A DNA stretch of 50,601 nt, taken from contig JAJZYR010000005.1 of the NCBI GenBank assembly GCA_021797995.1, forward strand, positions 1 through 50,601, written 5' to 3'. Both the position numbers and the translations under genes were made by a program. The notes under the pieces were generated by a model, which worked only from the letters and a program-made list of their open reading frames with translations, ran no database searches and was not told where the DNA came from. Positions 12,189 through 22,242 of the stretch are shown one piece after another. Origin of the DNA: Microcaldota archaeon. GTDB lineage: Archaea > Micrarchaeota > Micrarchaeia > Micrarchaeales > CABMGC01. How positions within the stretch are numbered: the stretch's first letter is position 1; each line of letters begins with the position of its first letter.

Positions 12189-13380
12189 TTACCAGCGCAG
12201 ATTGAGGTTTTTATCCCCATATCTTAAGGGAAAATCCCCTAAAATTGCCTCAATTGGGGGCGAAAGATTGCTCACGACCCTGATTCTGAACCCGTTTCGG
12301 GGATAAATGACCGTAAGTGTCAAATTTCCGAGGTATTTTTTGAGTAACTTGAAATTCTTGACGTCAGGGTTCTTGCACAATTTTTCTGTCAAATTTATTA
12401 TGGCTGATGCGAGGAAACAGACGAACAACGCCCCTATAATTGCATCTCTGTTCCAGTGGCGTATTGGGCGCAGCTCACCTCCTTCCTTCATGCACCTTAT
12501 GAACTTCTCCGCAACATCTCTTTGCTTGTACAGTTCAAGGACTATCTTCGGATCTACGTCAAGAGAACTTTCAAGAATGAAGAACCCCTCGATACCAGTT
12601 ATGTATGGGTTTTCGATATTCGAGATGGTTTGCTGTATCTCAGGATAAAGCCCGATCCATCCCTCCTTTGAAGGGAACGTTTGAACTGCCTTGTGTTTCC
12701 TTGCCTTCTTTGCCAGTTCGCCTCCTTTCTTCAATCTCCTTTGAAACTTCAACTCCTTCTTTCGCAATTGATCCTTACAGAGTTCCTTTGAGAAGAAGAT
12801 GTAGAGGAATTCGTTGTCTCTTTTGTCCGATGCCCTCTTCACTGCGAGATACTCCTCTTTCACGACGTTTGGTGCTTCTCCTCGTTCGATCGTAATCTCT
12901 TGGCATTCCTTCTCGAAGTTCTTTATGTGATTCTTGTACGTCCTTACCTTTTTCGCCTTCAAGGTTAGGTAGTTGTACCCATTGCTGATAATCTTATCTT
13001 TTACCCACGGTGAATTGCCGCCGCAATCGAACATGATGAGAGACCCTTTTTCGAGGATTCGCAGCGACACTTTCAACATCTCCCTCATATGCAGTTTATC
13101 CTGTAGATTGCCTCTTTGTATCGTCAGCGCAGTGGGAATGCCACTGACACCGGTGGTTATACCCCATGTAACCTGCTTTTTGTCAGGCCTGTGGTCTCTG
13201 GAGTATCCATGTTCCGCCAGTTCGGCCTTTTTCCCTTCGAAATACGATGAAGAGAAGTCAGTGATCTGATCATTGTCAACCAATCCCTTTTCAGAGATAA
13301 TGTTCTGGTATTTTTCCATCAGTATCGGAAATAGTCTACTTATCTTCTGGATGTCTCGGTAAAGAGATCTTTCGGGTAGC
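12189..13380 (-). pseudogene. IS1634-type (IS4 superfamily) transposase, 5'-truncated
   Basis: The C-terminal two-thirds of a DDE transposase. It starts just before the first catalytic Asp (QITDFSSSYFEG), continues with HGYSRDHRPDKKQV, the second Asp block (LIMFDCGG) and the family Y-x2-R-x3-E-x6-K signature (YKQRDVAEKFIRCMK). The readable frame from ATG 13319 has 376 codons, but the same frame stays open to 13380, where it meets an IS66 remnant and a repeat. Full-length relatives are about 550 residues, so the N-terminus is lost. Confidence 0.8.
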
Positions 13381-13381
13381 T

Positions 13382-13400
13382 GTTTAGAGTTTTGAAGTGC
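13382..13400. repeat. Copy of palindromic repeat arm
   Basis: A 19-bp sequence GTTTAGAGTTTTGAAGTGC, present again as an exact inverted copy at 14277-14295. It spans the stop codon of the IS66-type fragment and the point where the IS1634 fragment begins. Confidence 0.75.
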
Positions 13401-14213
13401 CCAACGACAACTTATTCTCGAGGTACTCTTTGCCCCAAGTAAGGAAGTTATGGTCTCTCATCTTACACGTCTGAAGAGTTGTAAGCAGTACTGGCATTGT
13501 GACTATGCCGTTGTCTCCCCTACTCCCATAAGAGTTCTTCCGCATTACAACTGTTGGTCTTATTGCTCTTTCCGCAACATTATTGTCTGATGTGACGCCA
13601 TCTTTGATCAGGAATGTGAACATATTTCTTGCATGTCTCCTGAGTCTCTTTATCAGTCTCTTGCAGTCGGAATCTTTCCAACCTTCATTGCATAATGCAA
13701 TGACTCTGTCTTCTAGGTGCCCCTTTCGTGTTTCTAGCACGGATAGACGTTTCTCCCTTTCTTTCAGTCGTTTGCCGTCATCAAGTATCCTCTTGAGCTT
13801 CTTTTTGAAGACAAGGAATTCACCTCCACTGCATTTTCCCTTTGCAGTCTCCTTCAAGTCTCTGCGAAGATGGACGTCGCATTTCTGCCAACTACTTCCG
13901 GCGTAATTGTATGCCCCTAAGAAGTCGCTGCCTACGGTACCTCTGTAGTCTTTGCCCAACACCCTCTTTGGTATCTTCTTGCCCCTGCTATCTTCGATAG
14001 TGTAGAATGTCGTCCATTTTCCCACGAAAGCCCACAGCCACCAGTTTTTCCCGTTCTTTCTCCAACTCGTCTCGTCTCCATTAACATACGGGCTCTTTCT
14101 CAGATCTTCTCTGAGTTCATCGTAATATTCTCCAAACTCACCTGCCAGAGAGTCCAACATCTGTGGCAATGCACCCTTTGACAAATCTAAACCATACGCA
14201 ATCCGAAGTATCT
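13384..14213 (-). pseudogene. IS66-family transposase, 5'-truncated
   Basis: The C-terminal half of an IS66 (TnpC-like) transposase. It holds DETSWRKNGKNWW with the first acidic residue, GSDFLGAYNY, a CDVHLRRDLKE helix, and the closing SDNNVAERAIRP followed by RKNSYGSRG. The shortest readable version starts at TTG 14184 with 266 codons, but the frame stays open to 14213, where an 82-bp palindrome begins. Complete IS66 transposases are about 500 residues. The truncation point carries the same AACTCTAAACAG sequence that borders the IS1634 fragment. Confidence 0.8.
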
Positions 14214-14384: not shown

Positions 14385-15497
14385 TCAATAATGTGTGGTA
14401 TTATTACTTTTGCGGTTTGCTATAAGTACCTTTTTGTATACTACAAACGTTTCCCTTGCACATCTTTCCCATGTGAAACTTCTTGCATATTCCGTTGCCG
14501 CCTTTCTCAACTTTTCCTTGTAGCCCTTTTTCTTCAAGTTTTCTATTATCTGCGCCATGCGCTCCGGGCTCTCTGCCTCGAAGCAGTATTTCCTGACTTC
14601 CTTTGGGATCTTTCCGTATTTATAGATTATCACAGGGAGGCCGCGGGCCTGGGCCTCGAGGATCGGATAACCAAGACCTTCGTACAGGCTCGGAAACGCG
14701 AAGGCGTTGAAGCTGTCGTAGGCTTTTATCTTGGCGTCTTCGTCGAGGTGGCCTCTCAACTTGACATTGCCAAGGGCGTTGTCCTGCCTGAACTTATCCA
14801 GGATACCTTTGTCAGCACCTGTCCCGTATATCGCAAAGCGGTACTCGGGCTTTGATTCCAATGCCTTTGCAGCCTGCAGTATGAATAAGACGTTCTTGTG
14901 CTTCATCAGGGCGCCAATATAGCCTGTTGTAAAATATCCATTCTCTTTCTTCTTCTGCAGAGGAGTGCTGATAATCGCGTCATTCGTACCGTGCGATACG
15001 ACTTTTACACTAGCCCTCTGCCCGAAATGCGCGATAATCGTTGCGCACGTCTGTGTGGAGTTGCAGAGCAGGAAGTCAGAGTAGCCCACGGCGTCGCTGA
15101 CGCTTCCCTGCACCATGTGGTTGTAAATCATCTGCGCGAGGCCGCGGTGAAGGCCTTTCTCGAACCGGGAAAGGTCGTGTATTGTAGTTATTACCCTGGC
15201 CTTGTTTCCGAATTTTTTCAATATTTTTGCTGCAAAGCCGAGTTCGTGGTCGAGGATGTGTATGATATCGTATTCCTGCGTCGGTATCGAGGCTATCCTC
15301 CTCTTGAAGGAAGTATTGGATATGAGCAGGCCGCGGACGTTGTTCCTCTCGGACTTGGAGAGCGCATAGAGTACGCCTATCGAATCGCTCTCGGAAAGAA
15401 GCGGCTTTAGATGCCTTGCCAGTTGATAGGCGTATTCGGTAAGGCCGCTCCCGCTTCCCCTATACGGCATTGTGTTGTTTATTAGGAGAATCTTCAT
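14385..15497 (-). CDS. GT4 glycosyltransferase
   Basis: A GT-B fold retaining glycosyltransferase, 370 residues. The N-terminal domain begins MKILLINNTMPYRG with a glycine-rich acceptor loop. The C-terminal domain has GYIGALMKHKN, the donor-site YGTGADKG region, and the E-x7-E element in PSLYEGLGYPILEAQARG. It is predicted to be cytosolic and to add a sugar during glycan assembly. It stands apart from the AT-rich rml block and has the GC-richer composition of the host. About 90 bp between it and the palindrome hold no recognisable gene. Confidence 0.87.
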   Translation of the reverse strand: MKILLINNTMPYRGSGSGLTEYAYQLARHLKPLLSESDSIGVLYALSKSERNNVRGLLISNTSFKRRIASIPTQEYDIIHILDHELGFAAKILKKFGNKARVITTIHDLSRFEKGLHRGLAQMIYNHMVQGSVSDAVGYSDFLLCNSTQTCATIIAHFGQRASVKVVSHGTNDAIISTPLQKKKENGYFTTGYIGALMKHKNVLFILQAAKALESKPEYRFAIYGTGADKGILDKFRQDNALGNVKLRGHLDEDAKIKAYDSFNAFAFPSLYEGLGYPILEAQARGLPVIIYKYGKIPKEVRKYCFEAESPERMAQIIENLKKKGYKEKLRKAATEYARSFTWERCARETFVVYKKVLIANRKSNNTTHY

Positions 15498-15616
15498 CGT
15501 ATACTGGAGAGTATTTGTTAGTTGGCTTTTAAAGTCTTATGCGTATGCAGGGGTCGGGCAAAGCCAGGCAGAGGCCATCGCATTCATTAAATGCATAATG
15601 CGCTTAAGTTTCTAAC

Positions 15617-15799
15617 ATGGAGAGGCCAAGGTTCCTTATCACGGGCAGTGCGGGATTCGTAGGCAGGCACATGATTGCGGAGGCAGTGCGGAACGGCTAT
15701 GAGGTGGTAGTGCCAGACATAAAGGAGAACAACAGCGCAGGGATGGAGTTTGTAAGGGCTGACATCCGGGACAGGGCAGAGGTCGCAAGGAGCATCATG
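15617..15799 (+). pseudogene. NAD-dependent epimerase, N-terminal fragment
   Basis: About 60 codons match the NAD-binding start of an extended SDR epimerase: RFLITGSAGFVGRHM at residues 5-19, then VVVPDIKEN and FVRADIRD. Homology stops at about 15799, and the frame continues only as a chance reading to 15907. The sequence immediately after is the C-terminal end of an epimerase on the opposite strand. This is a gene remnant created by inversion and deletion. Confidence 0.75.
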
Positions 15800-15806
15800 C
15801 CGCCGC

Positions 15807-15966
15807 TCACTTCCTCCAGTATTCTACCATCTTGTCAAGCCCTTCCGACAAAGAATATTCCGGCTCCCAGTCCAGCAGCTCCTTCGCTTTTGAGCTGTTG
15901 CCTATGAGTACCTTTGCGTCAAGTGGCCGCGGCGGGGAGCTGTGCCAGGTCCGCAGTTCAAATGCC
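15807..15966 (-). pseudogene. NAD-dependent epimerase, inverted C-terminal fragment
   Basis: Read on the minus strand, about 52 codons end in the classic epimerase tail: PLDAKVLIGNSSKAKELL, then a WEPEYSLSEGL block, then EYWRK and a stop at 15807. An in-frame stop at about 15967-15969 marks its upstream limit. It faces the N-terminal fragment at 15617-15799 with only 7 bp between, so the two halves are in inverted order. Confidence 0.75.
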
Positions 15967-15988
15967 TATATATATTTACCTATATATA
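15965..15988 (+). promoter_or_regulatory. Direct repeats and TATA region before the MNT gene
   Basis: CCTATATATA occurs at 15965-15974 and again at 15979-15988, just before the ATG at 15997. One or both can serve as the TATA box. The 14-bp phasing suggests a possible autoregulatory operator. Confidence 0.4.
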
Positions 15989-15996
15989 ATATCTGC

Positions 15997-16605
15997 ATGA
16001 CTGTTTACAAGCAGACTCTTCTCCGCGAAGACGCATATAACCAGCTCGTTGCAGCAAAGGAGAGGCTGCGCTCGCTGTATGGAAGAAGGATAACGCTCAG
16101 TGACGCCATAAACCTCATGATAGGCAGGAGGCTCAACCTTCTCTACCTGCCTAAGGAGATGCAGGAGTACATCTCAGGGTTCGTGAAGATCGCCTCGGAA
16201 GACAGGCAAGTCCTGGGGGTTCTGCTCTTCGGGTCCGTGGCGAAGGGCACCTACGGCAAGTACAGCGACATAGACCTGCTCGTGATGGTAAGGGGAAGGG
16301 CCAAGGAGCACCTGCAGCCGGTGCACGAGATGGTGCAGTCTGCAAACCCGCTTGCGGACAAGTTGGCTGATACGGGAATATACTCTTACATAACGCCCAT
16401 AGTGCTCGGCAGCGATAATTCCGGAAGGTTCTCGCCACTGTACGCAGCGTTTGTTGACGAGGGCATAACGCTCTTTGACAGGGACGGCGCGCTTGCCGGA
16501 TTCCTCTCTGATGTGAGCAGGATGGGATATACCAGGGAGGAGTTGGCAGGGGCAATGGTAATAAGGTGGAAGCATGGAGGCAGAGGAGATACTGAGAAGC
16601 TCTGA
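15997..16605 (+). CDS. MNT-type nucleotidyltransferase with N-terminal extension
   Basis: A minimal nucleotidyltransferase of the MNT-HEPN toxin-antitoxin class, which in studied pairs neutralises HEPN by modifying it. LLFGSVAKGTYGKYSDIDLLV (residues 77-96) carries the GS-x9-10-D-x-D motif: Gly79, Ser80, Asp91, Asp93. Residues 1-50 are an added segment (VYKQTLLREDAYNQL, then RITLSDAINLMIG) resembling VapB/CopG-like antitoxin N-termini, so the protein may also bind DNA. The start at 15997 follows the TATA-like repeats and gives 202 residues; upstream in-frame codons overlap the inverted epimerase fragment. It overlaps the HEPN gene by 32 nt. Confidence 0.78.
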   Translation: MTVYKQTLLREDAYNQLVAAKERLRSLYGRRITLSDAINLMIGRRLNLLYLPKEMQEYISGFVKIASEDRQVLGVLLFGSVAKGTYGKYSDIDLLVMVRGRAKEHLQPVHEMVQSANPLADKLADTGIYSYITPIVLGSDNSGRFSPLYAAFVDEGITLFDRDGALAGFLSDVSRMGYTREELAGAMVIRWKHGGRGDTEKL

Positions 16606-16981
16606 GATGTGGCTCCGGACGTGCGACGCAAGCAGGAAGGCCGGGATTCCGGCCTCTGCGCTCTACAGCCTCGAGATGTCCGTGGAGATGGCGCTGAAGG
16701 CGGTGCTCTGCGGCCTGGGCATAGAGGTGCCGAAGGCACACAATGTCACGAACCAGATAAGGGAGGTTGCGAGGCATGATGCGCGGATTCCAAAGGAATT
16801 CAGGGAGAGGATGGATAAGATCGCCAGTACGTTCTCAACGCTGGTTGAGTACCGGGCACCATCCGGATACTCCTTCGAGTACAATCTCTCGGATGAGGAA
16901 TTGGAAAGAAAGCTTGACAGCCTGTATGACGACTCTAAGGAGATAATTGAACTCTGCAGGAGGGCGGTTGCGTCTTTATAG
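16574..16981 (+). CDS. HEPN-domain protein (toxin partner of MNT)
   Basis: A 135-residue all-helical HEPN protein: SLEMSVEMALKAVLCGLGI followed by PKAHNV (His56), the usual block of the family, and a C-terminal VEYRAPSGYSFEY segment like the RYPD-type HEPN set. The strict R-x4-6-H ribonuclease motif is not obvious, so toxicity is uncertain. It starts inside the MNT gene and ends 10 bp before a copy of the 5' end of the spermidine-synthase-like gene. Confidence 0.7.
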   Translation: MEAEEILRSSEMWLRTCDASRKAGIPASALYSLEMSVEMALKAVLCGLGIEVPKAHNVTNQIREVARHDARIPKEFRERMDKIASTFSTLVEYRAPSGYSFEYNLSDEELERKLDSLYDDSKEIIELCRRAVASL

Positions 16982-16991
16982 GGTTGAGGCA

Positions 16992-17109
16992 GTGGAGTTT
17001 CTCGACCGTCTGCTGAACCGAAGGCGCACCGGATGCGTAAATGGAGAAAGCGGAAGCAGGATAGAGATCTACGGGTACGGAAATGGGAAGGTCATGAAGT
17101 TCAACGGAA
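16992..17109 (+). pseudogene. 5' fragment (copy 1) of spermidine-synthase-like gene
   Basis: 118 bp match the start of the gene at 20451. The encoded FLDRLLNR, then the IEIYGYGNGKV and KFNG blocks are kept. The first 29 bases differ from the intact gene only in the start codon (GTG for ATG), whereas bases 45-118 are closest to copy 2 at 18628, so it looks mosaic. Homology stops sharply after GTTCAACGGAA at 17109. The 190 bp that follow hold no gene, only the promoter of the ATPase. Confidence 0.85.
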
Positions 17110-17298
17110 TCGAAAAGTCGTCGGAACAGGAACATGCCCAGCAGACGCAGGGGAAGCCAGCAGCTTTTAGCCATTTGGGGATGCTGCTTCTTACTATGCA
17201 CTGGCTGCTCCGTCCTGTGCCTATAATTATTGAAACTTGTTTAATAAAGATGCGATAGATATTTAAATAGGTTAAACGATAATTGTTAGTTGCTTGCC

Positions 17299-18591
17299 AT
17301 GGACAGAATCATAACAAGGGATCTTCTGGAGACGGTGTCAAGGCACCTTGACGATGAGAAGATAATAGGCGTGCGGGGACCGAGGCAGTCTGGCAAGAGC
17401 ACGCTGCTGAAGCTAGTAAAGCAGAGGCTGATTGAGAGGGGGGTTCCTGAGAAGAGCATAACGCTTCTCACGTTCGAAGACCCGGGCGTACTCGACGACT
17501 TCGTCAAGGACCCTGTGCGAATGCTCAAGAGCTACGTTGCCGGGGACTCAAGGCACTACTTTCTGCTCGACGAGGTGCAGTATGACAAGGGTGCAGGAAA
17601 GCGCCTTAAACTCGTCTTCGACACTATGGAGGGGGTAAAACTCATTGTAACGGGATCGTCGTCTCTTGACATCGCTCAGGTCTCCAAGTTTCTTGTAGGG
17701 AGGATGCTCATGTACGAGCTCTATCCGCTGAGCTTCGGAGAGTATCTCAGATACGAGGACGAGAGGCTCTACAGGATCTTCATGGAGAATAATGAAGGGG
17801 TGTGTGCGGTGCTTGCTGGAAAGGCGGTAGAGCTGGAACTGGATGGAACCTCGCTTGGGGAGATAAATTCGCACTTTATGAAGTACATAACCTACGGCGG
17901 CTACCCTGATGTTGCAAGGCATGCGAATAACACAGATAAGATGGAACTGCTGAAGAACATATACACGACATATGTGGGCAAGGACATAGCCACACTCTTT
18001 GGCATAGACGACACGATGAAGCTGAGGAGGGTTCTGATAATTCTTGCCTCGCAGATAGGATCGCTTGCAAATTACAATGACCTGGCAAACAATACAGGCA
18101 CGTACTACAAGGAACTAATGCGGTACATGGGAGTTCTGGAGGAGACCTACATCATAAACCAGCTGAGGCCTTTTCATAAGAACATGAAGACCGAGCTGAG
18201 AAAGAATCCGAAGATCTATATGCTTGACCTAGGTATGAGAAATTATCTTGTGAATAACTTTAATGACCTTGAAAGGCGGGAAGATGCGGGCCACATAGTC
18301 GAGAACTTTGCCTTCTCAGAGCTGTTCAGGAACCTTGAACCAAACCGCTCCCTTTATTTCTGGAGAACCCTTACCAAAGCTGAGGTTGATTTCATATTGT
18401 GGGACCAGAACGCCGCGATCCCAATTGAGATAAAGTTTTCGGGCTTTAGGAACGCAGAGATAACTAGGGGCATGAGAAGCTTTATCTCCGAGTATAAGCC
18501 GCGTGTGGCCGTAGTGGCGACGCGTGATTTTATAAAGGAGGTCAAGATAGACTCGACCGCAGTCTTCTTCGTTCCTGTTGCTTTTCTATGA
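17299..18591 (+). CDS. AAA (AAA_14) ATPase with DUF4143-like C-terminus
   Basis: A P-loop ATPase of the mobile archaeal/bacterial group. Walker A is GPRQSGKST near residue 27 and Walker B is YFLLDEVQ near residue 92. The sensor-like VTGSSSLDI is followed by PLSFGEYLRYED, typical of AAA_14. The C-terminal part has LDLGMRNYL and the nuclease-like TKAEVDFIL with IPIEIKFSG, as in DUF4143/PD-(D/E)XK-like tails. The ATG at 17299 is preferred over TTG 17290. A palindromic TATA box (TATTTAAATA, 17260-17269) lies 30-39 nt upstream. The function is unknown; such genes travel with defence and toxin modules. Confidence 0.82.
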   Translation: MDRIITRDLLETVSRHLDDEKIIGVRGPRQSGKSTLLKLVKQRLIERGVPEKSITLLTFEDPGVLDDFVKDPVRMLKSYVAGDSRHYFLLDEVQYDKGAGKRLKLVFDTMEGVKLIVTGSSSLDIAQVSKFLVGRMLMYELYPLSFGEYLRYEDERLYRIFMENNEGVCAVLAGKAVELELDGTSLGEINSHFMKYITYGGYPDVARHANNTDKMELLKNIYTTYVGKDIATLFGIDDTMKLRRVLIILASQIGSLANYNDLANNTGTYYKELMRYMGVLEETYIINQLRPFHKNMKTELRKNPKIYMLDLGMRNYLVNNFNDLERREDAGHIVENFAFSELFRNLEPNRSLYFWRTLTKAEVDFILWDQNAAIPIEIKFSGFRNAEITRGMRSFISEYKPRVAVVATRDFIKEVKIDSTAVFFVPVAFL

Positions 18592-18627
18592 GGTGCGTAG
18601 TGCAATATGCTTTGTAGGTCTGGCTAG

Positions 18628-18805
18628 ATGGGATCCCTTGACCGACTGCTGAACAGGAAGCGCGTAGGATACGTAAATGGGGAAAGCGGAGGCAGGATAG
18701 AGATCTACGGGTACGGAAACGGGAAGGTCATGAAGTTCAACGGAACCGTGTACCCGGGGGTCAGCAAGGACAGCACATGCACGCACGAGTACTGGGACTG
18801 CTTCT
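18628..18805 (+). pseudogene. 5' fragment (copy 2) of spermidine-synthase-like gene
   Basis: About 178 bp match the start of the gene at 20451, from ATG 18628 through codons for THEYWDCF. The frame then leaves homology and stops at 18834. It begins 36 bp after the ATPase stop. It is nearly identical to copy 1 in the IEIYGYGNGKVMKFNG block. The three copies share the exact 19-mer TAGAGATCTACGGGTACGG. Confidence 0.87.
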
Positions 18806-18838
18806 TGTGGGTATGCCGGAAGTGTGGTCTCTGATAAA

Positions 18839-18870
18839 TAACTATAAATAGTTATCGTTTTAGTAACTAT
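18839..18870 (+). promoter_or_regulatory. AbiE promoter with inverted and direct repeats
   Basis: TAACTAT (18839-18845) and ATAGTTA (18848-18854) form an inverted repeat around AA, and TAACTAT recurs at 18864-18870. The box CTATAAATA (about 18842-18850) is embedded in the palindrome and lies 24-32 nt before the ATG at 18874, so binding would block TBP. AbiEi antitoxins are known to repress their own promoter through inverted repeats, so this is a good operator candidate. Confidence 0.65.
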
Positions 18871-18873
18871 TCT

Positions 18874-19650
18874 ATGACAAAGAACAGTATGCCCGGGCAG
18901 AGCATGACCCCGACAGAGCAGAAGGTATACTTCGCGCTCTCAGGATCCGGTGGCATGCTCTTCGACATCGCGCAGATCAGAAGCTACGGTCTCTGCGGCG
19001 AGGGCATGCTGAGGAGGGCGCTCTCATCGCTCGTCGCGAAGGGCAGAATGACAAGGATAAAGAAGGGCCTCTACCTCATCGGCGACACCGACCCGTTTAT
19101 TGCAGGACCATACATGTTCAATGGCTACCTGGCATTTTCCTCGGCGCTGTATGTCTACAGGGCCTTCGATGAGAGACCTTCCCTTATATACGTGGCGAAT
19201 GCATCTTCGTCTGCCACGCGGATCCTGGGGGGCATGGAGATAAAGGGGGTTGCGCTGCATAGGCGGGCGCTCGGCATGACGCGCCATGAAGGCTATATCG
19301 TATCGACAAAGGCGAAGACGGTGTATGACAGCCTCTACCTGCCCGAAGACGCGGGTGGGTATGGCAAGGTGTTGCGCGGCATTGCGATGCTTGGCATGGG
19401 CAGGCAGGACTGGGATGAGTTCCTCTCTTACGTGAAGAGGTTTGAGGGGGCATCTTTCAGAAGAAAGGCAGGGTATCTCTTTTCGGTACTGAACACCGCC
19501 GGCGCGTTCGTGCCGCGCCGTGTCATAGACAGCCTGAGATGCCAGGGGGGCGTTACGAGGCTCGGGCAGGGAAGGAAGGGCAGCTATGTTAGGGAGTGGA
19601 ATCTGGTCGACTATGTCGGCAAGGAGGCCCTCATGGGGTGGGTGCAGTGA
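18874..19650 (+). CDS. AbiEi-like antitoxin / transcriptional regulator
   Basis: The antitoxin half of a type IV AbiE system. The N-terminal 75 residues form a winged helix (LRRALSSLVAKGRMTRIKKGLYLI is the recognition and wing region). The middle (FNGYLAFSSALYVYRAF, then ALHRRALG) and KAKTVYDSLYLPEDAGG match the AbiEi C-terminal domain. At 258 residues it is the usual length. Its TGA overlaps the ATG of the toxin gene by 1 nt. The operator-like repeats in front suggest autorepression. Confidence 0.83.
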   Translation: MTKNSMPGQSMTPTEQKVYFALSGSGGMLFDIAQIRSYGLCGEGMLRRALSSLVAKGRMTRIKKGLYLIGDTDPFIAGPYMFNGYLAFSSALYVYRAFDERPSLIYVANASSSATRILGGMEIKGVALHRRALGMTRHEGYIVSTKAKTVYDSLYLPEDAGGYGKVLRGIAMLGMGRQDWDEFLSYVKRFEGASFRRKAGYLFSVLNTAGAFVPRRVIDSLRCQGGVTRLGQGRKGSYVREWNLVDYVGKEALMGWVQ

Positions 19651-20450
19651 TGGTGCCGAGCGAGGAGATGTGCAGGTCGATTGCGCCGAAGTCAGGCCTT
19701 CCCCTGGACTTCGTAGTGAAGGAGTTCTACCTCTTCAATCTGATGGAGGGCATTGTTGGCGGAGGCTTCTCGAAAGACCTTGTCTTCAAGGGGGGCACGG
19801 CGCTCAACACAGTCTATCTCAGCGGCCTCAGGTTCTCGGAGGATCTGGACTTTGACCTTGCAAAGGAGATTGATGACATAAAGGGATATCTTGGCATGGT
19901 CATGGGCGGAGCCGCGGGATTTGCAGGCACGGAGATGCGCAGGGTGCGCAACACCTATATGATAGACTTCATGTACGATTCGCCGTTGGGCAGGCGCGAC
20001 AGGGTGAGGCTTGACGTGAGAGTCGGCACGCAGCATCTCTCCGCAGAAAAGCCGCGCAGGATGGCAATGCGCTCAGTCGTCACGGGCCAGGTGGTCGGAA
20101 ACGTTCTTGTCTACGGATTCGAGGATCTGCTTGCGAGAAAGATGGGCGCGCTGGCGGAGAGAGAGGAGGGAAAGGACCTCTTCGACGTGTCTAATGCAAT
20201 TGGCAGGGCAGACCGGAGGAAGCTGCTTGGCGCCATTGGCTACATGCTGAAGGACCTTGCAAAGGACGCTGATATAACCGGCTTTATCGGGCGGGTGCTG
20301 GACAGGCTTGAGAACATGGACTATAACAAGGCAATGAAGCTTACGAACCCATACATACCAATAGCGAGCAGGCCGCCAAGCTGGAAGCTGCTCGGCGCGG
20401 ACCTGGCGGAGAGGATGCGCAGGCTCATGGAATCCGATAAGGGTATTTGA
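19650..20450 (+). CDS. AbiEii-like nucleotidyltransferase toxin
   Basis: The toxin half of AbiE, a DNA polymerase beta-like nucleotidyltransferase. The signature LVFKGGTALNTVYL is followed by RFSEDLDFDLA (GG-T-A-L with the paired acidic residues). RLDVRVGTQ adds the third acidic strand, and AREEGKDLFDV-type spacing near residue 175 carries the conserved Lys-Asp. The start at ATG 19650 overlaps the antitoxin stop; an ATG 54 nt further upstream would lie inside the antitoxin gene. It ends directly in front of the intact spermidine-synthase-like gene, with no gap. Confidence 0.83.
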   Translation: MVPSEEMCRSIAPKSGLPLDFVVKEFYLFNLMEGIVGGGFSKDLVFKGGTALNTVYLSGLRFSEDLDFDLAKEIDDIKGYLGMVMGGAAGFAGTEMRRVRNTYMIDFMYDSPLGRRDRVRLDVRVGTQHLSAEKPRRMAMRSVVTGQVVGNVLVYGFEDLLARKMGALAEREEGKDLFDVSNAIGRADRRKLLGAIGYMLKDLAKDADITGFIGRVLDRLENMDYNKAMKLTNPYIPIASRPPSWKLLGADLAERMRRLMESDKGI

Positions 20451-21206
20451 ATGGAGTTTCTCGACCGTCTGCTGAACCGGAAGCACGCCAGCTGCATAAA
20501 GGGGGAACGCGGAGGCAGTATAGAGATCTACGGGTACGGCAACGAGAAGGTCCTGAAGTTCAACGGAACCGTGTACTCGAGGGTCAGCAAGGACAGCATA
20601 TACACGCACGAGTACTGGGACTGCTTCCTTCCGCTCGCCTGCCTCTATCCCAGGCCGCGCGTGCTGATCATCGGGTTGGGGGGAGGAACTGTCGCATATC
20701 AGCTTCGCAAACTCTTCGGCGCATCAGTCACGATAGACGTTGTGGAGACTGACAGGAGCATGGTCAGGGCCATGGAAAGCTTCCTTCCTGAGAGGATAGA
20801 AGTAAAGGTAATGATAGGCGACGGAGCCGGATATGTTAAGAGCATAAAGCACAGGTACGACACGATAATCCTTGACGCCTACGTTAACGACCTTGTGCCT
20901 GAACAGTTCCTCACGCAGGAGTTCATTGACAGCACATACGATGCGCTGGGCCCTGCAGGGACCTTTGCAATAAACTACATCAACTCATCGAACGGGCAGG
21001 AGAGGCTCGAGGGCTACATAGCGCTCCTGAAGGCGAGGTTCAGGGTCTTCGAGGTGGCTCCCAACTCCTTTACCTCGAATGTGGTGCTCGTCTGCTCCAA
21101 GGTATTCGGGAAGGAGGAGATGCTCGAGCGGATAAGGGCGGCAATGCCGAGGGACGGGAAAAACCTCTTCCTGCTCGAGAGCTACGAAGGCATGAAGGAA
21201 GCATAA
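20451..21206 (+). CDS. Spermidine-synthase-like aminopropyl/methyltransferase
   Basis: A Rossmann-fold protein of the polyamine aminopropyltransferase group. It has a short N-terminal beta domain (IEIYGYGNEKV, then VYSRVSKDS), the SAM-type motif LIIGLGGGTVAYQ near residue 70, VVETD as the acidic ribose contact, MIGDGAGYV and YDTIILDAYVND. At 251 residues it is shorter than classical SpeE (about 280), so the substrate is open. It starts with the ATG that directly follows the AbiEii stop. Its first 120-180 bp occur twice more upstream (16992 and 18628), each time behind another accessory module. Confidence 0.8.
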   Translation: MEFLDRLLNRKHASCIKGERGGSIEIYGYGNEKVLKFNGTVYSRVSKDSIYTHEYWDCFLPLACLYPRPRVLIIGLGGGTVAYQLRKLFGASVTIDVVETDRSMVRAMESFLPERIEVKVMIGDGAGYVKSIKHRYDTIILDAYVNDLVPEQFLTQEFIDSTYDALGPAGTFAINYINSSNGQERLEGYIALLKARFRVFEVAPNSFTSNVVLVCSKVFGKEEMLERIRAAMPRDGKNLFLLESYEGMKEA

Positions 21207-21216
21207 TAGCCTGGCT

Positions 21217-21633
21217 TTATTCGGGCTGCTGGAACTGAGGCATCTTGACTCCATATGTTTCGCACTCGCCCTTTAGATTCCCGTCAAATGTCAACAGCGG
21301 CAGATCCTTCTTCTTTGCAAATGATAGTATGAGTTTGTCGTTGAATCTTTTGAATGTGGTGTTCCCCTCATGCATGATTGCATCTTTTGCTTGCATGATT
21401 TCGTCTTCGCCTACGCCGAGGATTTCGTAGGAGTTCAAGACCTCCCTTATCTCCTGCTCGATTGTCTTCTTGTCCAGACCCATCCTATTCAGTACGTACA
21501 CAAGCTCCTCTAATACGACGCTTGGCAAGACGCCATTGTCAATTCTTTCAAGATACTCCTTGGCTTTCTCATGCATCTCAGAGCCTTTTATTATATAATC
21601 CACCAGTACGTTTGTGTCTATCACGCACTCCAT
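21217..21633 (-). CDS. vapC: PIN-domain toxin VapC
   Basis: A PIN-fold ribonuclease, 138 residues. The N-terminal CVIDTNVLVDY carries the first Asp, VVLEELVYVL a conserved Glu, and the C-terminal FNDKLILSFAKK and LLTFDGNL the remaining acidic residues. In such pairs it cleaves tRNA or rRNA. It overlaps the antitoxin gene by 13 nt and converges on the spermidine-synthase-like gene. Confidence 0.87.
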   Translation of the reverse strand: MECVIDTNVLVDYIIKGSEMHEKAKEYLERIDNGVLPSVVLEELVYVLNRMGLDKKTIEQEIREVLNSYEILGVGEDEIMQAKDAIMHEGNTTFKRFNDKLILSFAKKKDLPLLTFDGNLKGECETYGVKMPQFQQPE

Positions 21634-21869
21634 TTTACCGCCTCTGAAAAACCCTCGTCTATTGCATCTTCTATCTCCTTCTCTGTTACCTGCCTGCCCA
21701 AGTCTATGATCTTAAGGGTCACTTTCTTCCGTGGCGCCTTCGCCTTGCTGGCCTTGAGCCTTTTGTTTATAAGCAGGGATAGTTTTCTGGTACTGCCATA
21801 CTCCTTTACTGACTCTGCCACAAGCTCCTGATACAGTTTGTCTTCTAGCATTATCGTTGTCTTTACCAT
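21621..21869 (-). CDS. vapB: VapB-type antitoxin
   Basis: An 82-residue protein upstream of and overlapping vapC. The first 45 residues (KTTIMLEDKLYQELV, then TRKLSLLINKRL) look like a ribbon-helix-helix DNA-binding domain. The rest is charged and ends EIEDAIDEGFSEAVKW, a likely toxin-binding tail. It is probably an autorepressor together with VapC. Confidence 0.82.
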   Translation of the reverse strand: MVKTTIMLEDKLYQELVAESVKEYGSTRKLSLLINKRLKASKAKAPRKKVTLKIIDLGRQVTEKEIEDAIDEGFSEAVKWSA

Positions 21870-21875
21870 GGCCTT

Positions 21876-21898
21876 ATATGTTATCTAGACATATATAA
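21876..21898 (-). promoter_or_regulatory. vapBC promoter/operator
   Basis: An inverted repeat, ATATGT (21876-21881) and ACATAT (21889-21894), lies directly before the vapB ATG, with a TTTATATATG box overlapping its far arm on the minus strand. The arrangement suits repression by VapB. Confidence 0.5.
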
Positions 21899-21933
21899 AC
21901 TTTATGTTTAGATGGCGTATATTGGCCTAACAC

Positions 21934-22209
21934 TTATTCGAGCCTCTTTATTATGTGGTAGCCGAACTGAGTCTTCACTATGCCCGATACCTGGCCCTTC
22001 TGGAGGGAGAATGCGGCCTTCTCGAACTCCCTTACCATCACGCCATGGCCGAACTGGCCCAGGTCGCCGCCCCTCCTCGCCGATCCGTCAATCGAGTACT
22101 GCTGCGCCAGGTTCGAGAACTTCTCCCCCCTGCCCAGCCTGTCCAGGATCTCCTTAGCCTGCGATTCGCTCTTTACCAGTATGTGCGCACACCTTATCTT
22201 GTCTGCCAT
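21934..22209 (-). CDS. Parvulin-type peptidyl-prolyl isomerase
   Basis: A single-domain parvulin of 91 residues: IRCAHILVKSESQAKEIL at the N-terminus, GEKFSNLAQQYSID, GGDLGQFGHGVMVREFEKA, and the C-terminal VKTQFGYHIIKRL. These are the conserved blocks around the active site His, Cys-position and Phe residues of PpiC/Pin1-like enzymes. It has no signal peptide, so it is cytosolic and assists folding by proline isomerisation. It sits 33 bp after the VKOR gene on the same strand. Confidence 0.92.
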   Translation of the reverse strand: MADKIRCAHILVKSESQAKEILDRLGRGEKFSNLAQQYSIDGSARRGGDLGQFGHGVMVREFEKAAFSLQKGQVSGIVKTQFGYHIIKRLE

Positions 22210-22242
22210 GTTCTTACCTCCCTATCCCTTACCGTAGAAGGC

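Follow-up and report, generated by a model that had tools for sequence, protein, structure and literature searches.

We analysed a window of 50,601 nucleotides, positions 1 to 50,601 of contig JAJZYR010000005.1 in a Micrarchaeota metagenome-assembled genome (MAG; assembly GCA_021797995.1, 32 contigs, 945 kb, 94.6% complete), in which the 5' end of a spermidine-synthase-like gene (spdS) is repeated behind small toxin-antitoxin and ATPase modules. The spdS locus is probably a stack of gene-end-restoring mini-islands, devoid of integrase, that pile up at attachment-like sites and spread by recombination. As judged by sequence comparison across the family, modules of the same types duplicate gene ends at tRNA 3' ends and protein-gene ends alike, a single site holds different modules, and some sites are empty.

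A repeat search of the window placed three in-register copies of the spdS 5' end at 16992, 18628 and 20451, the last being the intact gene, as the original prediction, made from the window alone, had stated. In blastn comparisons, 16993-17112 was 86% identical to 20452-20571, 18637-18804 was 88% identical to 20460-20627, and 17001-17112 was 88% identical to 18637-18748, with E values of about 1e-32 to 1e-54 across the three pairings; the copies thus share 86-88% identity over 112-177 bp. The window has exactly three occurrences of the 19-mer common to them, and its opposite strand has none. The frames of both truncated copies (f1 and f2) stay open from the start codon, and the stop codon of the AbiEii gene (20448-20450) immediately adjoins the spdS ATG, leaving no gap, again as predicted. 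In the rest of the 945-kb genome no further spdS copy was found, the next-best match being only 27 bp, and a comparison of spdS with viral contigs gave merely three matches (30% identity, 71 residues). The parts of the array are listed below; G002 is a sister species (MAG FK3.bin34) and G009 a third species.

15617..15798, plus strand: sugar epimerase gene, 5' fragment only, lying to the left of the array and not derived from spdS (Pfam Epimerase, 1e-8, residues 7-60)
15997..16605, plus strand: MNT-type nucleotidyltransferase of the MNT-HEPN pair (PF01909, NTP_transf_2, 1.6e-10)
16574..16981, plus strand: HEPN toxin partner (PF05168, 3.6e-12)
16992..17112, plus strand: spdS 5' fragment 1 (f1), GTG start, 121 bp, 86% identical to intact spdS
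17113..17289, plus strand: spacer between f1 and the ATPase, including a 71-bp stretch with 75-78% similarity to two other sites in the genome
17290..18591, plus strand: AAA_14-DUF4143 ATPase module, ATPase-A (PF13173, 9e-27; PF13635, 1e-39)
18628..18805, plus strand: spdS 5' fragment 2 (f2), about 177 bp, 86-88% identical to intact spdS, with its right-hand junction as on contig C79 of G002
18874..19650, plus strand: AbiEi-like antitoxin (PF13338, AbiEi_4, 3e-4, below cut-off), 97% nucleotide identity to G002
19651..20450, plus strand: AbiEii toxin (PF08843, 1e-19, Pfam match on 19596-20450), 96% nucleotide identity to G002
20451..21206, plus strand: intact spdS, the proposed insertion target (PF01564, Spermine_synth, 3.5e-13), with protein orthologues at 76% in G002 and 75% in G009

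Pfam agrees with the module identities that had been read from the letters alone, the AbiEi_4 match being weak. The f1 copy had also been described as a mosaic, starting like the intact gene and continuing like f2. Its first 30 positions match the intact gene at 29 and f2 at 21, in line with the first half of that description. Over the next 90 positions it matches f2 at 80 and the intact gene at 73, a weaker likeness to f2 than had been claimed, and the mosaicism is real yet modest.

The relatives hold other contents at the same gene end. In G002 the order is an AAA_14 ATPase (B), 61 bp from the 3' end of another ATPase, a 79-bp internal piece of spdS and AbiEi-AbiEii, followed by a 69-bp spdS 5' fragment, a further AAA_14 ATPase (C) and intact spdS. 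The 69-bp fragment is 96% identical to the spdS of G002 itself, and the stop codon of ATPase C likewise adjoins the spdS ATG. On this evidence, the same gene end in G002 has apparently taken in a different module and left another fragment, and such a module, flanked by the same 5' end, is what the original prediction had expected of relatives if the gene end served as a cassette site. In G009, GHMP-kinase-like and phosphatase-like genes precede spdS and no module lies upstream, an empty site, although on that side the gene order no longer follows that of the window. Serial insertion at one gene end, and a 5' end that strings modules together as a recombination border, had been offered as alternatives; both are supported, since the modules vary by species and the junctions recur.

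Compared base by base with G002, f2 of the window is 83% identical, the spdS start beside AbiE 77% and intact spdS 80-86%. Given that the AbiE genes stand at 96-97% and their spdS borders at 77-86%, transfer of AbiE between the lineages postdates their divergence. The f2-to-AbiEi junction is common to the window and G002 (C79), and f2 in G002 is identical to the spdS of that genome. These comparisons support movement of the AbiE unit between both lineages, with the borders of the exchange lying within the duplicated spdS ends.

The same pattern recurs elsewhere in the source genome, where modules of these kinds are flanked by further local direct repeats, as a self-comparison covering 944 kb revealed. 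In a scan for tRNA 3' ends, displaced fragments were detected downstream of tRNA-Ala (three, stacked), tRNA-Met, tRNA-His and tRNA-Leu; fragments matching at least 22 of 30 positions lay only downstream, and no equally strong match was found upstream or reversed. A further intron-bearing tRNA-Leu, uncalled by ARAGORN, shows the same arrangement. At tRNA-Ala, the three displaced 3' fragments separate an ATPase, an MFS gene with AbiE, and an ATPase. The cargo is AbiE at tRNA-His, where the AbiE stop adjoins the tRNA, and at the tRNA-Leu on contig C16, while tRNA-Met carries a DUF981 protein. On contig C26, the 3' end of an intact gene recurs as a displaced copy, with a PIN toxin located between the two; we read the intact gene as a putative peptidyl-tRNA hydrolase, for which no Pfam match was obtained.

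Repeats of other descriptions were also noted. At the tRNA-Ala array, three AAA_14 ATPases each have behind them a repeat of 118-138 bp (L153 2200-2335 and 4887-5023; L152 17337-17454). This repeat corresponds to no recognised gene end, and in G008 (L314) it brackets an AAA_14 gene as well. The 5' end of a small membrane-protein-like gene falls within a perfect 90-bp direct repeat (L148 10995-11084 and 13051-13140; C21 30995 and 33051), the fragment here lying downstream of the intact gene, unlike at spdS. Contig C19 holds a 1.4-kb direct repeat of 99.9% identity (L103 1-1405 and 5727-7131).

Across the family, individual sites are reused. Module family names in the relatives come from profiles built here and from reading of the sequences, except where Pfam is cited. 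The tRNA-end scan of G050, a single-contig genome of another genus, placed an AAA_14 ATPase at tRNA-Val and AbiE pairs at tRNA-Gly and tRNA-Arg. The tRNA-His site is occupied by AbiE in the source genome (G000) and G003, by a VapBC-like pair in G007 and by a different gene in G004, and is empty in G009 and G005. The tRNA-Arg site, which holds AbiE in G050, carries in G011 a PIN-type toxin-antitoxin pair bracketed by an identical 53-bp repeat. Protein genes are used as well: in G009 a ferredoxin gene has its 3' end repeated twice, and these repeats set apart AbiE, a DUF5615-like toxin region and an AAA_14 ATPase; the same gene end brackets AbiE in G015, which belongs to another genus. For two ATPases, beside tRNA-Asn and tRNA-Glu, the best far-side match lies just past the ATPase and is too weak to claim. 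The AAA_14 genes of four genomes (L310, L311, L312 and L313) are bracketed by a related repeat with stretches such as GATGCACAAGATGCGC, perhaps the terminal repeats of an AAA_14 element family.

To express this association in numbers, a gene was counted as bracketed when a direct repeat of at least 40 bits lay within 2 kb. In G000 and G050 together, 8 of 16 AAA_14 or AbiEii genes were bracketed, as compared to 37 of 1579 other open reading frames (ORFs; Fisher p=2e-9), and all ORFs of the two genomes gave 45 direct brackets and 2 inverted ones. In a family sample of best-scoring loci, picked without regard to repeats, direct brackets surrounded 14/24 AAA_14 genes and 14/29 AbiEii genes, the flank for the latter being only about 1.5 kb, and inverted brackets none of the 53. 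The other ORFs in these loci were bracketed in 25 of 107 cases, in part because they share brackets with the sampled genes. The background includes brackets made of tandem or secreted-protein repeats, and not every AAA_14 bracket is a gene end; the figures therefore measure bracketing and not proven insertions.

Tyrosine integrases (PF00589) are present in 57 of the 79 family genomes. At the eight best-scoring loci the integrase starts 18-74 nt past a tRNA 3' end, the place taken elsewhere by solo modules; no tRNA fragment, which would mark a solo integrase unit, was seen downstream of these eight within the loci examined. There is good support for the insertion of elements at tRNA ends by integrases in this family, and these enzymes presumably insert solo modules too, including those at spdS.

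We therefore favour the following course of events, in conditional terms. Small defence or toxin-antitoxin mini-islands would enter spdS at an attachment-like site within its first ~70-180 bp, most likely through site-specific recombination by a tyrosine integrase that acted in trans or has since been lost. Each entry would leave the truncated old 5' end upstream and an uninterrupted gene downstream, an anatomy that is observed and from which the order of events is reconstructed. The duplicated 5' ends would then serve as homology borders for the movement of modules between species, as the AbiE comparison indicates.

Several observations weigh against this course. The main difficulty is that the spdS fragments left behind differ in their end points (+69, +121 and +177), a spread not readily accounted for by one crossover site, whereas one-sided illegitimate recombination would explain it. 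None of the spdS modules contains an integrase, and no PF00589 match was found near spdS, consistent with the original prediction. The only such match in the source genome is a truncated tyrosine integrase on contig C10 (L094 249-896), whose open frame starts inside tRNA-Leu(cag); as the genome is 94.6% complete, an intact integrase may be missing from the assembly. To the left of the first module, MNT-HEPN, no spdS-like fragment rose above the reverse-complement control in 15401-16950, and only the ATPase and AbiE modules are consequently flanked by copies on both sides. The G002 contigs C79 and C15 are joined solely by an exact 127-bp overlap, and because this is an overlap of assembly length only, their adjacency is likely, not certain. 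Between the window and G002, intact spdS has no foreign 5' segment or identity step. The claim that each event restores a working 5' end is thus consistent with the anatomy but lacks this trace, and we can only infer an incoming replacement 5' end. Neither a module circle nor active excision was observed.

The variable fragment ends, together with the mosaic f1 and the modules without integrase, would suit homology-facilitated illegitimate recombination without any site-specific enzyme, in which incoming DNA carrying a module and spdS pairs within spdS while its other end joins illegitimately inside the recipient spdS, leaving a 5' end of variable length. The passage of AbiE between species with borders inside spdS fits as well, and a similar process has been proposed for the type VI secretion system (T6SS) immunity arrays of Vibrio, although it is described as rare in other organisms (PMC5361080). 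However, it leaves unexplained how a module first became joined to a gene end, as well as the frequent targeting of tRNA 3' ends in one orientation, and we consider it rather unlikely; owing to the tRNA evidence and the one-directional fragments, integrase-type entry is ranked ahead of one-sided joining. It is possible, if not the explanation we would choose, that the modules are what remains of larger integrase-bearing islands at gene ends, stripped to addictive toxin-antitoxin or ATPase genes as the genomes shrank. Integrase-bearing elements do hold the same tRNA-end position in the family, and truncated integrase pieces persist at tRNA-Leu, but the remnants are tight, with the AbiE stop adjoining tRNA-His or the spdS start, the same AbiE unit is found at tRNA-His in two species, and the recent AbiE move at spdS involved a minimal unit. 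Such decay may be true of some loci; it overlaps with the mini-island explanation, and the explanations weighed here are not mutually exclusive.

Tandem spdS paralogues decaying in place around resident modules would account for the open frames of both fragments, yet G000 and G002 differ in the modules between the copies, G009 carries a single spdS gene without any module, the fragments never exceed ~180 bp, and tRNA genes show the same arrangement. Full-length tandem paralogues with constant modules, the outcome named in advance as contradicting serial insertion, were not found in the relatives, and we reject this very improbable account. Misassembly, a concern for a window from a 32-contig MAG, is hardly credible and is likewise rejected: the copies diverge by 12-14%, an independent MAG repeats the f2-AbiEi junction, and the pattern is present in the single contig of G050. 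At the other extreme, a general Micrarchaeota cassette system is conceivable but quite unlikely. Under such a system, solo toxin-antitoxin and AAA_14-DUF4143 modules would use the ends of host genes as attachment sites and pass from one species to another as minimal units, the driving agents being either trans-acting integrases or the AAA_14-DUF4143 proteins.

Other features were noted around the array. On its left, two apparent transposase genes occupy the minus strand at 12189-14184. For the epimerase 5' fragment at 15617, no other nucleotide-level copy was found in the sequences compared; it is followed at 15798-15935 by an apparent rearrangement scar, a stretch that on the minus strand reads like another epimerase at its 3' end. 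Within the spacer behind f1, the remnant at 17113-17183 is 75-78% similar to C21 119263-119316 and C19 9581-9656 and, on our reading of the sequence, resembles an IS605/TnpB right end. On the right, a PIN toxin (Pfam 2e-21) with a small upstream partner lies at 21217-21869, between spdS and a PPIase-like gene; this pair is present in G002 (87% nucleotide identity over 21214-22212) and absent from G009.

These results suggest how very small, probably host-dependent archaea acquire and retain toxin-antitoxin and defence modules: single modules may be added at gene ends with the gene left unbroken, and then move from species to species via the duplicated ends. A gene end repeated beyond a module could further serve as a sequence signature for finding new modules in streamlined archaea.

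The original prediction had raised the prospect of an undescribed mechanism, which our data do not show: a regenerated target accompanied by a displaced fragment of it is the classical mark of a site-specific island (PMC4383910). In the literature searched, which leaves most subscription journals outside its coverage, no description of this arrangement in Micrarchaeota or with DUF4143 was found. A DDE transposon is not indicated, as no inverted pair was found at the module ends, the duplications measure 69-177 bp, and inverted repeats bracket none of the 53 sampled genes. Nor do the loci look like an integron cassette array with attC sites and an IntI integrase, although no search aimed at integrons was made: the repeats consist of coding gene ends, and no integrase adjoins them.

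The tRNA-gene islands catalogued by Islander regenerate the target, displace an end fragment to one side and can form tandem arrays (PMC4383910), and the present loci resemble them in all three respects. An intact target with a displaced end in the same orientation is seen at spdS and at tRNA-Ala, -His, -Met and -Leu, and relatives have an empty site at tRNA-His (G009 and G005) and at spdS (G009), whereas no integrase lies inside the element at spdS. Within the targets, the spdS fragments end at three points and the tRNA blocks begin at different ones. Islander discards candidates that lack an integrase gene or are shorter than 2 kb (PMC4383910); many of the present units fail both rules, so that such mini-islands would be missed, and here a protein gene is targeted as well, at its 5' end. 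In the ssrA islands of Dehalococcoides, tandem units lie between repeated gene ends, some without integration genes, and have been discussed as cis-mobilizable elements; they have a fixed 20-bp 3' repeat, and many a serine-recombinase module (PMC3146451). The present repeats, in contrast, span 23-200 bp and occur at many targets, and no recombinase is encoded in the spdS modules. AbiE and ATPase-A at spdS, and AbiE at tRNA-His and tRNA-Leu, nevertheless have att-like repeats on both sides and no recombination genes, and the array functions like one of cis-mobilizable elements, but without a demonstrated helper.

In the T6SS immunity-gene arrays of Vibrio cholerae, modules enter serially at one anchor and older remnants are lined up (PMC5361080). 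The remnant there is the immunity gene of the older module, whereas in the present arrays the older module is kept whole and what is left over comes from the end of a host gene unrelated to it. Integrated elements of Thaumarchaeota target protein-gene ends, reconstitute the frame and reuse one site in tandem, but carry an integrase or casposase, with a cryptic class of 2.6-98 kb (PMC6563490), unlike the integrase-free modules at spdS. At tRNA-Thr of Caldiarchaeum, a tRNA fragment and the intact tRNA flank a 1.8-kb unit, which, unlike the spdS modules, codes for a predicted recombinase (PMC3293823). The pTN3-like integrases use tRNA 5' halves (PMC8371274). What is unusual in the present case is the small size of the units (often 0.7-2 kb), the lack of integrase inside the modules, the cargo of a single toxin-antitoxin pair or a single ATPase, and the frequency of the arrangement in one archaeal family.

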